Positions 868 through 10,642 of a stretch of DNA of 10,642 bases are shown piece by piece; the stretch's first letter is position 1; each line of letters starts with the position of its first letter. The position numbers and the translations under genes were made by a program. Source of the DNA: Alphaproteobacteria bacterium (lineage in GTDB: Bacteria > Pseudomonadota > Alphaproteobacteria > Sphingomonadales > Sphingomonadaceae); the NCBI GenBank assembly GCA_016650315.1, contig JAENVZ010000273.1:1-10642 (forward strand), given 5' to 3'. The notes beneath the pieces were generated by a model. That model worked only from the letters and a program-made list of their open reading frames with translations. It was not told the origin of the DNA and did no database searches.

Positions 868-2133
<1,266 letters not shown>

Positions 2134-2586: not shown

Positions 2587-3516
2587 GTGATTGAATCAGG
2601 CCATCTCGGCGCTTTAGACAAATCGGATGAAATTTTGGGCGAAGTGGAAACGCACGACGAAATCAGCACTGATTTCCGGCATGTTCCAACTCCCCTTTTC
2701 GACCTGGGACAGATTAATGTCGATTGGGAAGAAGATACCGGCACATTATGGGCCTTTCTGACCCCTGCTGAGCGTCCCAATTGCAATATGCCTCTACTCC
2801 GGGATGCCATCACCTGGCAGACTGAAACCAAGCGGGTTTTCGGACACCCAAGCTCACCGCTCAAATATATGGTGCTGGGTTCACGCTTCCCCGGCATATT
2901 CAATCTCGGCGGCGACCTGGAAATGTTTGCCGACTGCATTGAACGACGCGATCGTGAAGCACTGCTGCATTATGGCGGCATATGTATCGAATTTGTGCAT
3001 CGCGTCTGGCATAATAATAACATGCCGATCATCAACATCGCCCTTACACAGGGCGATGCGCTGGGCGGTGGATTTGAAGCCATGTTGACGTTCGACGTGA
3101 TTATCGCCGAACGTCAGGCGCGCTTTGGACTGCCCGAGATCCTGTTCGGCCTGTTTCCTGGCATGGGCGCCTATAGCCTTCTGGCCCGACGACTTGGCCG
3201 CGCCATGGCGGAAAAGATCATTCTTGGCGGCAAGGTTTATACGGCCCAGGAAATGTACGACATGGGGATTGTCAGCATCCTTGTCGATGAAGGGGAAGGC
3301 GAACAGGCCGTACGCGATTATATCCGCGACACCACCGACCGCCACGCCGGTTATTGCGGCATTTATCGCGCCGGACGGCAAGTCGATCCGTTGCATATCG
3401 AGGAACTGACCGAAATTGTTGAAAACTGGGCGGATACGGCGCTGAAGCTGACACCCAAGGACTTGAAGCTTATGAGGCGTCTCGCCGCAGCGCAAGCGCG
3501 CCTGCCGTCTCGTTGA
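2587..3516 (+). CDS. rpfF: DSF-family signal synthase (RpfF-type crotonase)
   Basis: RpfF enzymes make diffusible signal factor, a cis-2-unsaturated fatty acid, by acting as both acyl-ACP dehydratase and thioesterase in the cytosol. The 309-residue product is a little longer than Xanthomonas RpfF (289). The hallmarks are present: GSRFPGIFNLGGDL at 98-111, GDALGGGFEA with E164, and GLPEILFGLFPGMGAYS with E184. E164 and E184 are 20 apart, as are the two catalytic glutamates E141 and E161 of RpfF. This separates it from ordinary enoyl-CoA hydratases. The start is GTG, with a stop upstream and no in-frame ATG between; a G-run serves as a weak ribosome site and may be folded away. The first ~35 codons look acidic and somewhat AT-rich. 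No RpfC or RpfG gene is adjacent. The 3' end overlaps the convergent GGDEF-EAL gene by 47 bases. Confidence 0.88.
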   Translation: MIESGHLGALDKSDEILGEVETHDEISTDFRHVPTPLFDLGQINVDWEEDTGTLWAFLTPAERPNCNMPLLRDAITWQTETKRVFGHPSSPLKYMVLGSRFPGIFNLGGDLEMFADCIERRDREALLHYGGICIEFVHRVWHNNNMPIINIALTQGDALGGGFEAMLTFDVIIAERQARFGLPEILFGLFPGMGAYSLLARRLGRAMAEKIILGGKVYTAQEMYDMGIVSILVDEGEGEQAVRDYIRDTTDRHAGYCGIYRAGRQVDPLHIEELTEIVENWADTALKLTPKDLKLMRRLAAAQARLPSR

Positions 3517-5509
3517 TCGGCGGGATTGACGACATTCCGCTCCACATGCTGGCGGGCGGCGCTCCATCGCCCCTTTCGAGCAACTTCAATATCGCATCGT
3601 CGCTCATGGGCTTGTTGAGCAGATAGCCCTGCAAATTGGTAAAGCCGGCATCCTTGGCATAACGCAGTTGTTCGTGCGTTTCGATCCCTTCAGCCACCGT
3701 GTCCATATTCAGTTCGCGGGCAAGATGCGCCACCGCCCGAATGATTGCGCGGTCCTCAAAACTCTTGTCGATCCCGGCCAGGAAGGACTGATCCACCTTG
3801 ATCGTATCGAAACTGTAGGAACGCAAATAGCTGAGCGAGGAATAGCCCGTTCCAAAATCATCCAGCGCCATGCGTAAACCGATACGCCGCAATTCCCGCA
3901 ATATCTGGCTTGTCTGCGTATTATCTTCGAGGAACACCGATTCAGTCACCTCAAGCTCCAGCCTGCGGGCCTTGAGCCCTGAGGAATAGAGGCAGGCAAT
4001 AACCGTCCGCGGCAAATCACCCGCACGCAACAAGGCCGGCGATATATTCACGGCGACACGAACATCGTCCGGCCATTGCGCAGCCGACGCGCAGGCCTGC
4101 CCCAGAACCCATTCGCTGATGGGGCCAATCATTGAAATGCTCTCGGCGATCGGGATGAATTCGCCCGGAGACACATCGCCCAACACGGGATGATGCCAGC
4201 GAATCAATGCCTCGCAACACGCGACCCGGCCCGTCTCGATGTCGAATATGGGCTGATAATGCATTTTGAATTCGCCACGCTCAATCGCCTTGCGCAGTCC
4301 CGCCTCAATCTCACGAATGCGGTGGAACCGCTCCTTCATGGACCATTCAAACAGGCTGAAACGGTTCCGCCCGCCATGTTTGGCGTGATAAAGGGCCATG
4401 TCCGCATGTTGCAGAATTTCGTCGCGGTCATGTCCATCCTGTGGGGCTACCGCAATGCCGATGGACGCCGAAACAGTCAGATGATGACCGCTGATCTCAA
4501 TGGGTTCTGCAAGATAGTCCAATATATCCTTGGCAATTTCCGCTGCGTCCGGTCGGCTTGTCTGGCGGCACAGAATGATGAATTCGTCGCCGCCAAAGCG
4601 CGCGATTGTACCGCGGTCGGCCAAAGCCTGACTGATTTTTTCCGCCACCAACACAAGCAACTGATCGCCAACGATATGGCCAAGCGAATCATTGATCTCC
4701 TTGAACCGGTCAAGGTCCATCCAGATAACCGCCAGACCATCGCGCTCACCATTGCTTTCGTCGAACATGTCACGAATGCGCATCTGCATCGCCATGCGGT
4801 TTTCAACACCCGTCAGGCTGTCATAGCGCGCCAGCTTCTCAAACTTCGCGGCGAGCAGCGATTTCTGATGTTTGCCGTTTAACGCTTCAAGCACGACCCG
4901 ATGGGTTGCAGATGAAATTTCGGCAAGGCCGAGAATCATTAAGATGACTGAAACCGACAAAACCCGGTAGCCAATGTTGTCCACAGTCATCAAACCAGCG
5001 GCAGTAGGCGCCAGCGTCAGAAACACTTGCCCCACCGCAATGTGCACCCGTCCGGCATCGCGCCCAGATATGCTGCCTGCATAGCCTGTGGCCAGCGCCA
5101 CGCACAGCAGGTGCGCGATGGCATTTTCGCTGCGAACCAGGGCCGTGAACGCCAACAGCCCCAACAGGCTGGCATAAATCCAGGCGCCATGCTCGTAGGC
5201 CAGTTCCCAGCCACGCGACCCGCGGGTCACACCCGACTGCACATTGCGCTTGAAATAATAGGCCGAAAAAGCGCGCAAGACAGCGATCGTGCAGATCAGA
5301 ACGGTTATGCCAGTGATAATATTGTCGTTTACAATGCGCATCACGGCAACGCTGACGGCGCTACCGGCGACCGCGCCCAAGGCCAGGGAAAGCGGTGAAG
5401 CATAGAGCGATTCAACCAGCGCGCGGCGCACATCCACATTCTGCCGCGCATCAACTGTCGACTTGGCCCGCCATCTGGACAGAAAATTTCTCAACTGCGA
5501 ATTCCACAT
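3470..5509 (-). CDS. Membrane-anchored GGDEF-EAL cyclic-di-GMP enzyme
   Basis: This 679-residue protein can in principle make and degrade cyclic-di-GMP, the second messenger for the motile-to-sessile switch. Residues 1-30 are basic and cytosolic. About five or six hydrophobic segments between 40 and 200 form a membrane sensor domain I do not recognise. A GGDEF domain follows, with the intact signature FGGDEF at 305-310; the usual inhibitory RxxD five residues before it is ADRG, so product inhibition is probably absent. The EAL domain looks active: E433-A-L, N488, E520, D550-D551, K571, D573, E607-G-I-E610 and LQGY near 626. A 40-residue proline-containing tail follows. The start ATG has AAGG five bases upstream. 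Its end overlaps rpfF tail-to-tail. RpfR, the DSF receptor of Burkholderia and Cronobacter, is also GGDEF-EAL but has a soluble PAS-type N-terminus, which this protein lacks. A link to DSF is therefore only suggested by position. Confidence 0.93.
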   Translation of the reverse strand: MWNSQLRNFLSRWRAKSTVDARQNVDVRRALVESLYASPLSLALGAVAGSAVSVAVMRIVNDNIITGITVLICTIAVLRAFSAYYFKRNVQSGVTRGSRGWELAYEHGAWIYASLLGLLAFTALVRSENAIAHLLCVALATGYAGSISGRDAGRVHIAVGQVFLTLAPTAAGLMTVDNIGYRVLSVSVILMILGLAEISSATHRVVLEALNGKHQKSLLAAKFEKLARYDSLTGVENRMAMQMRIRDMFDESNGERDGLAVIWMDLDRFKEINDSLGHIVGDQLLVLVAEKISQALADRGTIARFGGDEFIILCRQTSRPDAAEIAKDILDYLAEPIEISGHHLTVSASIGIAVAPQDGHDRDEILQHADMALYHAKHGGRNRFSLFEWSMKERFHRIREIEAGLRKAIERGEFKMHYQPIFDIETGRVACCEALIRWHHPVLGDVSPGEFIPIAESISMIGPISEWVLGQACASAAQWPDDVRVAVNISPALLRAGDLPRTVIACLYSSGLKARRLELEVTESVFLEDNTQTSQILRELRRIGLRMALDDFGTGYSSLSYLRSYSFDTIKVDQSFLAGIDKSFEDRAIIRAVAHLARELNMDTVAEGIETHEQLRYAKDAGFTNLQGYLLNKPMSDDAILKLLERGDGAPPASMWSGMSSIPPINETAGALALRRDAS

Positions 5510-5621: not shown

Positions 5622-6659
5622 TTAACGCCTGATGTCGGGAAGCAACAAGCTGGCATCGCCATAGCTGTAAAATCGATACCCTTCCGAAATAGCATGGGCA
5701 TAGGCCGCCTGCATCCGCTCTGCCCCCATCAGGGCACTCACCAGCATGAACAAGGTTGATCGAGGCAAGTGAAAATTGGTTATCAAGCCGTCAATGGCGC
5801 GAAATCTGTAGCCCGGTGTGATGAAAATGCGTGTATCTCCCTCGAATGGGCACAGCGTTCCATCTTCTCGCGCAGCACTTTCCAGCAGGCGCAGGCTGGT
5901 GGTGCCAACCGGAATGATCCGCCCACCATTTGCCCGAACAGCATTCAGTCGCGCCGCCACAGCGGCATCCATACGGCCCCATTCGGCATGCATGTGATGA
6001 TCGGTCGTATCGTCCGCTTTGACTGGCAAAAAAGTCCCCGCGCCAACATGCAGAGTCAACGTTTCGATCATCGCTCCGGCCGCTTGCAGCCGCTCGATCA
6101 GATCCGGCGTAAAATGCAGCGCAGCCGTGGGCGCGGCCACGGCACCCTGCTCCCGCGCGAACATGGTCTGGTAATCCTCATGATCCTGTGCGTCGGTTGG
6201 GCGCTTGCTGGCGATATAGGGTGGCAACGGCATGGTTCCTGCCCGTTCCAGCAATAACTCGATCGGCTCATCGCCTTCGAAATCCAGCGTTACGCTACCT
6301 TCATCGGTCCGGTCGCCGGCAAGCGCACTGACACCCTCGCCGAAATCGATCCGGTCGCCCGTGCGCACTCTTTTTGCGTTGCGTATGAAGGCCTGCCATT
6401 GTCGCAACCCGGTCCGCTTGTGCAATGTCGCGCCGATGCGCGCTTCACCTCGTCGGCCTTCAAGCTGGGCCGGAATGACTTTCGTGTCGTTGAAAACCAG
6501 GCAATCGCCCGGACGAATCAGGTCTGGCAGATCAAAAACGTGCCGATCAGCCATGCCGTCGGGCGCGACCACCAGCATCCGGGCGCTGTCACGGGGCCGC
6601 ACTGGACGCAACGCGATATTGTCAGACGGCAGGACAAAATCGAACAGATCGACGCGCAA
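5622..6659 (-). CDS. queA: S-adenosylmethionine:tRNA ribosyltransferase-isomerase
   Basis: QueA transfers and isomerises the ribosyl part of S-adenosylmethionine onto preQ1 in tRNA, giving epoxyqueuosine, the step after Tgt. The 345-residue product is near the usual length (E. coli 356). It begins with the typical [11 protein letters not shown] and carries [41 protein letters not shown] and [18 protein letters not shown], all characteristic of QueA. The start codon is TTG at 6659. The frame is closed by the stop of the preceding gene 15 bases upstream and has no ATG until residue 28, so TTG is nearly forced; GAGCGGG precedes it. It is probably co-transcribed with the upstream isomerase gene (15-base gap). 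In many alphaproteobacteria tgt follows directly; here the GGDEF-EAL and rpfF genes intervene. Confidence 0.96.
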
Positions 6660-9792: not shown

Positions 9793-10642
9793 TCACTCGC
9801 ATAGCGAAATGGCAATGGCATATTCTCCCTTGTTAGAGGCGTAATCCAGCTGCGACCGGAGTTGGCGGGAAAGGCCAGTGAGAATACGGCCAAAGCGCTG
9901 ATCCAGATATTGAGTCATTGTTGCGGATGTTATGAGCGCATTCGATTGCACGCGCAAAATGGCGCGATGCATATTGGCCCGATGCCGAACGGATTCGCCC
10001 AGTCTGACAGAAATGCTGATAGGCGCGCGCGGATCCACCAATATTGACAGTTCGACCAGTTCGGTAATGAGGAACGAGATCGGCACGGCAACATCCTGAC
10101 TCACAAACAGGTGGTCGCTGCTCACCTGAATCGCTATATTGGGTGCATCGTCCGGCATACTGCTACCTAGCGCTATCGACAATTCGCTGACCAGCGAGCG
10201 GACACCTACACCGCGATGTTCCTCCAGTTCGGCATAATGGTTGCGATGAACGACCGAGAGCGCGTCCACCCGTCGCTGAATCGAGGCATAGGCATCGGCG
10301 GCCTCTTTCGTCTGGGCAGAGCGGCTGTGCAGGTTGATCAGGCTGGCGATGATCTGCAGGTTATTTTTGACCCGGTGATGCACTTCGCGGGTAAGGCGCG
10401 TTTGCCGATCCAGGCTTGCGGCCAGTTCGGCCTCATGATCCGCGACAGTCTGGGTAATGGCGCGAAACGTGTTGCCAAGATCGCGGATTTCCTGCGCGGG
10501 CGTTGGCATTTTACGGAGCGGTTCGAGCACTTCGCCAGGGTGATAGTCCGATACCAGGCGACGAAGCTGGATGAGCGGAAAGATAAGCAGCCGGTTGACC
10601 ACGAACCAGCCAATTCCGGCTGCGGCGATCCACATCCGGGGC
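9793..10642 (-). CDS. HisKA_2-family sensor kinase with degenerate ATPase domain, 3' part (PhyP-like)
   Basis: The frame is open to the right edge, so the 5' part is missing. Residues are counted from the first in-window Met (10635), which lies within a membrane helix and is not the likely start. Residues 1-20 are the end of that helix; a HAMP-like segment follows to about 70. The HisKA_2 box EVHHRVKNNLQIIASLINLHSR holds the phosphoacceptor H87. The ATPase domain is worn: the N-box, normally NELVxNAxKH, reads TELVELSILV, losing the essential Asn (L196), and the D-x-G-x-G of the G1 box is S-N-A-L-I (231-235). The last part, GLSRQLRSQL and KGEYAIAISL, still follows the family pattern. It is therefore probably unable to autophosphorylate and may act as a phosphatase or phosphotransfer partner. 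As I recall, PhyP, the negative regulator of PhyR in Sphingomonas, is of this kind; that identity is inferred. Confidence 0.85.
   Translation of the reverse strand, partial: PRMWIAAAGIGWFVVNRLLIFPLIQLRRLVSDYHPGEVLEPLRKMPTPAQEIRDLGNTFRAITQTVADHEAELAASLDRQTRLTREVHHRVKNNLQIIASLINLHSRSAQTKEAADAYASIQRRVDALSVVHRNHYAELEEHRGVGVRSLVSELSIALGSSMPDDAPNIAIQVSSDHLFVSQDVAVPISFLITELVELSILVDPRAPISISVRLGESVRHRANMHRAILRVQSNALITSATMTQYLDQRFGRILTGLSRQLRSQLDYASNKGEYAIAISLCE

Follow-up and report, generated by a model that had tools for sequence, protein, structure and literature searches.

A gene for an RpfF-type crotonase and a gene for a GGDEF-EAL protein with a membrane N-terminus form a real, conserved gene pair. 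We describe it in a stretch of 10,642 nucleotides (here called the window) of contig JAENVZ010000273.1, assembly GCA_016650315.1, from a bacterium of the family Sphingomonadaceae. The two genes are convergent, occur together in most family genomes that carry rpfF, and stand adjacent in members of Sphingomonadales and Hyphomicrobiales as well as on plasmids. We propose that the pair probably presents a third architecture linking diffusible signal factor (DSF) to cyclic diguanosine monophosphate (c-di-GMP), the sensing step being inferred.

RpfC/RpfG and RpfR are presented as two core modes of DSF perception in the available part of a review (PMC4504480), according to which the known rpfF-rpfGHC and rpfF-rpfR arrangements are also convergent. 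RpfC is a DSF receptor in Xanthomonas (PMC5391125, available part). RpfF has thioesterase activity on acyl-acyl carrier protein (acyl-ACP), and this activity is inhibited by the FI domain of RpfR (PMC6361424, available part). An architecture joining rpfF to a membrane GGDEF-EAL protein is not described in the available parts of PMC4504480, PMC8357829, PMC6361424, PMC10904736, PMC5391125, PMC9756655, PMC10673610, PMC12950752 and PMC9878147; as far as these parts go, PMC10673610, PMC12950752 and PMC9878147 mention rpfF together with a genus name and concern other bacteria or unrelated matters. Searches of an open paper library turned up no paper whose title concerns rpfF in sphingomonads, Methylobacterium or Pseudolabrys.

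Results

Layout of the pair

The features of the pair are as follows (window coordinates).
2587..3516, plus strand: rpfF-like gene, crotonase-family putative DSF synthase, 309 amino acids, GTG start (open reading frame (ORF), Pfam/NCBIfam, PDB relatives).
3076..3078, plus strand: codon of Glu164, GGGFEA motif (alignment to solved RpfF).
3136..3138, plus strand: codon of Glu184, GLPEIL motif (alignment to solved RpfF).
3470..5509, minus strand: membrane GGDEF-EAL protein, candidate receptor and c-di-GMP enzyme, 679 amino acids (ORF, Pfam, AlphaFold2 model).
4859..5509, minus strand: N-terminal membrane domain, residues 1-217, two N-terminal helices followed by six of membrane length, no Pfam family.
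4361..4831, minus strand: GGDEF domain, residues 227-383, motif RFGGDEF (Pfam).
3608..4297, minus strand: EAL domain, residues 405-634, motifs EAL, DDFGTGYSS and KVD (Pfam).
3470..3516, no strand: tail-to-tail overlap of both 3' ends, 47 bp, stop codons included.

The original prediction for this stretch, an RpfF-type synthase convergent with a GGDEF-EAL protein whose N-terminus crosses the membrane several times, is borne out by the ORFs, the Pfam and NCBIfam matches and an AlphaFold2 model with six predicted helices. The genome of the window (2.06 Mb in 324 contigs, 90% complete) holds eight genes for EAL proteins, and the chance that a given gene adjoins one of them is about 0.8%, assuming about 2000 genes.

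The RpfF-like protein

The start of the rpfF-like protein is backed by its relative in G075, a complete genome of the same genus, which aligns from residue 1. The protein matches the crotonase family ECH_1 of Pfam at 86 bits and NF006452 of NCBIfam (PRK08788/RpfF group) at 363 bits, the cut-off being 177. Four solved proteins stand out in a PDB sequence search at 163.6-171 bits, and the next crotonase follows at 63. Two of the four, 6dgn and 3m6m, carry the name RpfF; the other two, 7zq7 and 5fus, are named crotonase or putative enoyl-CoA hydratase, and we take them to be RpfF proteins as well. The narrower RpfF model NF053515 is missed (196 bits against a cut-off of 550), which is uninformative because RpfF of Burkholderia cenocepacia also stays below the cut-off, at 188 bits. 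The Burkholderia protein resembles ours in its scores on both NCBIfam models and is identical to it in 98 of 271 aligned columns (36%). By family membership and by its nearest solved relatives, the crotonase of the window is thus of the RpfF type. Glu164 and Glu184 align with the glutamates of RpfF, presumably the catalytic pair, and are invariant in 138/138 aligned rows, duplicates included. Family and conserved glutamate pair together suggest that the product of this putative DSF synthase would be a cis-2-unsaturated fatty acid.

The membrane GGDEF-EAL protein

Pfam finds GGDEF (151 bits) and EAL (243 bits) in the partner protein, and nothing else. Both motifs are intact, as had been predicted, and they are kept among the copies adjacent to rpfF: GGDEF is intact in 81/81 and the glutamate of EAL is present in 81/81, with five duplicates included. 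An RxxD I-site was not seen on motif inspection. The AlphaFold2 model of the membrane N-terminus (mean predicted local distance difference test score 90.9) has six helices of membrane length, the last continuing into the linker. No consistent Pfam match to this domain was found among 20 members; its best PDB sequence match stands at E 0.36, and fold matches are weak. ImcA of Pseudomonas aeruginosa (8wcn) is likewise a membrane GGDEF enzyme with a six-helix N-terminus.

The membrane N-terminus had been thought to stand in place of a PAS domain. This applies to the sphingomonads, but the version of Hyphomicrobiales has both: Pfam places PAS between the membrane domain and GGDEF in locus L188, and the proteins of L164, L179, L183 and L196 have extra sequence similar, by eye, to the PAS region of L188. 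The membrane domain may also feed other outputs, since in genome G211 (L229:5812-7332) it lies on a frame of 507 amino acids that resembles a histidine kinase as well.

Co-occurrence and adjacency in the family

Both genes were sought in 199 Sphingomonadaceae genomes, drawn evenly over genera and including that of the window. The cut-off for rpfF was above 200 bits. That for the membrane domain, 43 bits, was set after the list of 90 matches had been viewed; the six weakest were left out (one of them, at 20.5 bits, in G051, a genome with rpfF only), 84 were entered and 80 counted. RpfF is encoded in 74 genomes. Both genes are present in 67 genomes, rpfF alone in 7, the membrane domain alone in 13 and neither in 112, so that the membrane domain accompanies rpfF in 67/74 genomes and occurs in 13/125 without it, relatedness of the genomes being ignored in these counts and in their Fisher value, which is therefore not read as a probability. 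The genomes with the membrane protein only are G010, G044, G047, G064, G078, G102, G121, G126, G130, G151, G163, G186 and G197; they could be listeners, or the protein could also serve another cue.

Adjacency is looser than co-occurrence. The two genes are convergent neighbours in 17 of the 67 genomes, lie far apart on one contig in 30 and on different contigs in 20. It had been predicted that they co-occur and stay neighbours across sphingomonads: co-occurrence is strong, and adjacency is found in many lineages and surroundings, but not in most genomes of this sample. Taken literally, the finding that would speak against the prediction, genes usually apart, is what the sample yields (50/67); those 50 genomes nevertheless keep both genes. 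The surroundings of rpfF were retrieved for the window's genome and 36 others of the 74, and both loci for 14 of the 50 separated genomes.

Reach, surroundings and plasmids

Beyond the family sample, the best 80 of at least 557 relatives, ranked by likeness to the window, were inspected as named loci. A membrane GGDEF-EAL gene adjoins rpfF in 64 of these 80 (55 convergent, 9 divergent), a tally that is not a frequency, and the adjacent pairs span Sphingomonadales and Hyphomicrobiales. Eight of the divergent loci bear titles naming Pseudolabrys, Hyphomicrobiales or Rhizobiales; the ninth is titled Proteobacteria only. The pair is lacking at 16 loci: in 13 the neighbours are those of the exosortase A (XrtA) locus, asnB and/or zapE, L190 has a pirin-like neighbour as do some XrtA loci, L166 breaks off within a convergent GGDEF-EAL gene, and in L163 a different gene follows rpfF. 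A wrong-frame ORF in L160 was disregarded.

With five duplicates set aside, 76 pairs remain. Grouped by the neighbours that they share within 5 kb, they show 16 kinds of surroundings, of which nine are represented by at least two loci. Sixteen is an upper count, because the singletons L120, L125 and L126 sit less than 3 kb from a contig end. One surrounding is common to a set of 34 pairs from Sphingobium and Rhizorhapis. Matches to rpfF occur in 16 records of a plasmid collection, and four of these records come from Methylobacterium. Two were read, from Methylobacterium oryzae and Sphingomonas parapaucimobilis, and rpfF is convergent with a membrane GGDEF-EAL gene in both. On the Methylobacterium oryzae plasmid rpfF has c-di-GMP genes on both sides, the second being a separate GGDEF-domain gene (L232:2930-4378). 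An Escherichia coli plasmid (IncK2/Z) carries an RpfF-family crotonase amid ABC transporter and lipoprotein-sorting genes (L234:4815-5648), with no GGDEF or EAL gene listed nearby in a gene table that is incomplete. In L113, L114 and L115 a further frame beside the pair clusters with GGDEF-EAL proteins, with a hydrophobic stretch near the N-terminus in L113 and L115.

In mostly Novosphingobium- and Erythrobacter-like genomes, rpfF lies beside the XrtA exopolysaccharide cluster and/or zapE, a positional link to exopolysaccharide production. These loci are:
L071-L084; L175, L176, L178, L180, L191, L193, L194, L197, L198, L200, L204-L206.
All 27 were labelled by hand, and NCBIfam names were checked for genes of L071 and L073.

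Trees

A tree of RpfF was computed from 131 rows by a quick method that warned of long branches, with partner labels assigned by hand. It omits five duplicate named loci, L225 (a shortened locus) and L212 (a long fused frame); the label of L166 rests on its GGDEF-EAL part, and L163 and L190 are labelled 'other'. One branch with 106 of the 131 rows and a support of 100 (Shimodaira-Hasegawa-like approximate likelihood ratio test, SH-aLRT) contains all membrane-type and XrtA-type rows; the 21 rows labelled RpfC lie outside. The 27 XrtA-type rows together with L190 form one branch (SH-aLRT 99), so gene separation there fits a single event. For 14 of the 27, the same genome keeps the membrane protein elsewhere; the 14 separated genomes with retrieved rpfF loci fall in one branch of the tree. 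The mirror-tree correlation between RpfF and the membrane protein is 0.94 over 90 pairs.

RpfC-type partners and other DSF receptors

Loci were retrieved for six of the seven family genomes with rpfF only, and in 6/6 rpfF is convergent with a kinase of cluster 21, followed by a protein of cluster 0 with a receiver-like start. The seventh genome, G135, is 77% complete. In L085 Pfam reads these proteins as HisKA-HATPase-REC-Hpt, the layout of RpfC, and REC-PAS-GGDEF-EAL. The latter stands where RpfG with its HD-GYP domain would be expected, which makes L085-L090 (L085:3444-8101) a further version of the pathway. Profile searching for the RpfC-type input domain gave matches in 6/6 of the rpfF-only genomes searched and in 0/28 membrane-type genomes, that of the window included; since the six had contributed rows to the profile, only the 28 negatives test it.

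Wider sampling gave 337 genomes of the class, with an rpfF cut-off of E 1e-40 and at most nine membrane-domain candidates scored per genome. RpfF was found in 22, of which 20 lie outside the family. An L085-like kinase adjoins rpfF at 16 of the 20 best loci outside the family (by eye); L223 and L226 have no such kinase beside rpfF, and contig ends cut L219 and L225. Two of these kinases were scanned with Pfam and are HisKA-HATPase-REC-Hpt proteins. The partners scanned are five REC-PAS-HisKA-HATPase proteins and one REC-PAS-GGDEF-EAL, with one REC-PAS-HisKA a gene further off. In L208, L210, L213, L217 and L222, rpfF faces an RpfC-like kinase, and the place expected for RpfG is taken by another kinase, a REC-PAS-HisKA-HATPase protein. 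Genomes G385 and G472 have the membrane domain and no rpfF at E 1e-40.

Known DSF receptors were also sought in the window's genome and in G075, and, as the original prediction would have it, neither yielded an RpfC-type input domain (profile search), an HD-GYP match (PF13487) or a match to an FI-PAS query from RpfR. HD-GYP is present somewhere in 12 of 34 genomes searched; the FI-PAS query gave two weak partial matches in 34, a set holding no known RpfR as positive control. The Hpt proteins of the window's genome are one CheA-like protein and one frame of 158 amino acids. One of its eight EAL proteins (L001) is cut at a contig end, so its N-terminus is unseen.

Neighbouring genes

The pair lies between tgt and queA, an order that matches Rhizorhapis suberifaciens (L127).
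868..2097, minus strand: tgt (queuine tRNA-ribosyltransferase), flank on the rpfF side, also in L127.
5622..6659, minus strand: queA, flank on the other side; adjoins the pair in L127, about 2.3 kb off in L135.
At 9793-10641 of the window is the C-terminal part of a PhyK-like HisKA_2/HWE histidine kinase, which scores 95 bits against a curated cut-off of 750; the end of the window cuts the gene.

Discussion

We lean, with modest confidence, to the view that the pair is a DSF-type signalling module in which the membrane GGDEF-EAL protein serves as a dedicated one-piece receptor. The data behind this view are gene order and content, sequence motifs and a predicted fold. A single crotonase subfamily, a single dedicated c-di-GMP enzyme in the membrane and exclusion with RpfC make up the pattern expected of a replaced receptor. 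RpfF would make a cis-2-unsaturated fatty acid, as its family and conserved glutamates suggest. The predicted six-helix domain may bind this fatty acid in or at the inner membrane, and the change could reach the GGDEF-EAL part by way of the unbroken last helix. Net synthesis or breakdown of c-di-GMP would then be altered, in one direction or the other, both motifs being intact. As gene content shows, the GGDEF-EAL protein occupies the place held by the RpfC-like kinase and its receiver partner beside other alphaproteobacterial rpfF genes. More speculatively, the receptor may also restrain RpfF, as RpfC and RpfR do.

Both known systems share features with this arrangement. In RpfF/RpfR of Burkholderia and Cronobacter, rpfF is likewise convergent with a GGDEF-EAL gene, and the RpfF of Burkholderia cenocepacia is 36% identical and belongs to the same NCBIfam family; the putative receptor of the window has a predicted six-helix membrane domain, whereas RpfR has a cytosolic FI-PAS part. 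RpfF/RpfC/RpfG of Xanthomonas also has rpfF convergent with a membrane-anchored sensor leading to c-di-GMP, the sensor being a candidate in our case. Contrary to that system, the partner in the window lacks histidine kinase, receiver, Hpt and HD-GYP domains, and candidate sensor and c-di-GMP enzyme are one protein.

Several results weigh against a dedicated receptor. The genes are apart in 50/67 two-gene genomes, the co-occurrence counts take no account of shared ancestry, and the named loci were chosen by likeness to the window. The membrane protein is found in 13 family genomes where rpfF falls short of 200 bits. The mirror-tree correlation drops to 0.32 in the 14 separated pairs, and in L163, placed in a membrane-type branch, rpfF is followed by a different gene. 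By hhalign the membrane domain has no detectable sequence relationship to the RpfC-type input domain of Alphaproteobacteria (probability 0.8%). In the class-wide draw, where at most nine candidates were scored per genome, the domain is present in 6/337 genomes, three of which lie outside the family, and it adjoins rpfF in 0/20 of the rpfF genomes from other parts of the class; these low counts place the membrane type in the minority within this class sample. In G211, rpfF faces an RpfC-like kinase and the membrane domain lies elsewhere in the genome. The idea of a third architecture holds in that the pair stands where RpfC stands in related genomes, and is weakened in that the genes are apart in most two-gene genomes of the family.

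The strongest alternative, which we consider unlikely, keeps a functional link and dispenses with extracellular signalling. The crotonase would free or modify a fatty acid for the homeostasis of membrane or lipids, and the GGDEF-EAL protein would read the state of the membrane (fluidity, chain composition) and set c-di-GMP and exopolysaccharide. The position of rpfF beside the XrtA cluster in separated genomes agrees with this, as do the action of RpfF thioesterase on acyl-ACP (PMC6361424, available part) and the 13 genomes with the membrane protein and no rpfF. However, the best solved relatives of the crotonase include the named RpfF proteins 6dgn and 3m6m, far above other crotonases, Burkholderia RpfF scores like it on both NCBIfam models, and the partner swapped in sister genomes is an RpfC-like kinase, RpfC being a DSF receptor in Xanthomonas (PMC5391125, available part).

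Adjacency could also be inherited synteny devoid of functional coupling, and co-occurrence the shared ancestry of two Sphingomonadaceae genes. The single surrounding of the 34 Sphingobium and Rhizorhapis pairs, the strong clustering of partner labels on the RpfF tree and the lack of correction for relatedness fit such an explanation. We disfavour it as improbable in view of the spread of the 76 pairs over 16 groups of surroundings (nine with at least two loci), the two orientations, the two orders and the plasmid copies, and because six of the seven rpfF genomes devoid of the membrane protein have an RpfC-like kinase. Least probable of all, and hardly to be expected, is that the GGDEF-EAL protein mainly regulates RpfF by contact and senses another ligand, the output of rpfF being its target and not its input: inhibition of RpfF thioesterase by the FI domain of RpfR (PMC6361424, available part), persistence of the membrane protein in 13 genomes lacking rpfF and the missing homology of its membrane domain to the RpfC-type input would allow it, but the protein consists of the membrane domain followed by GGDEF-EAL with no soluble FI-like RpfF-binding domain seen, and the window's genome gave no match to the FI-PAS query.

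Returning to the dedicated receptor, a fuller version of it can be put forward tentatively, as plausible but falling a little on the doubtful side. The protein would be a one-component receptor whose undescribed six-helix domain detects the fatty acid within the bilayer and sets c-di-GMP directly; it would have replaced the RpfC phosphorelay, in Sphingomonadales, Hyphomicrobiales and on plasmids, and the genomes with the receptor only would be listeners to other species. The membrane domain, with its invariant charged and polar residues, among them R79, R150, R154 and Q161, presents a defined target for testing direct sensing of a lipid signal, and sister genomes with the RpfC-like kinase offer a natural partner-swap comparison. 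If true, a third receptor conserved in this way would widen the range of DSF signalling to sphingomonads, Methylobacterium and Pseudolabrys.

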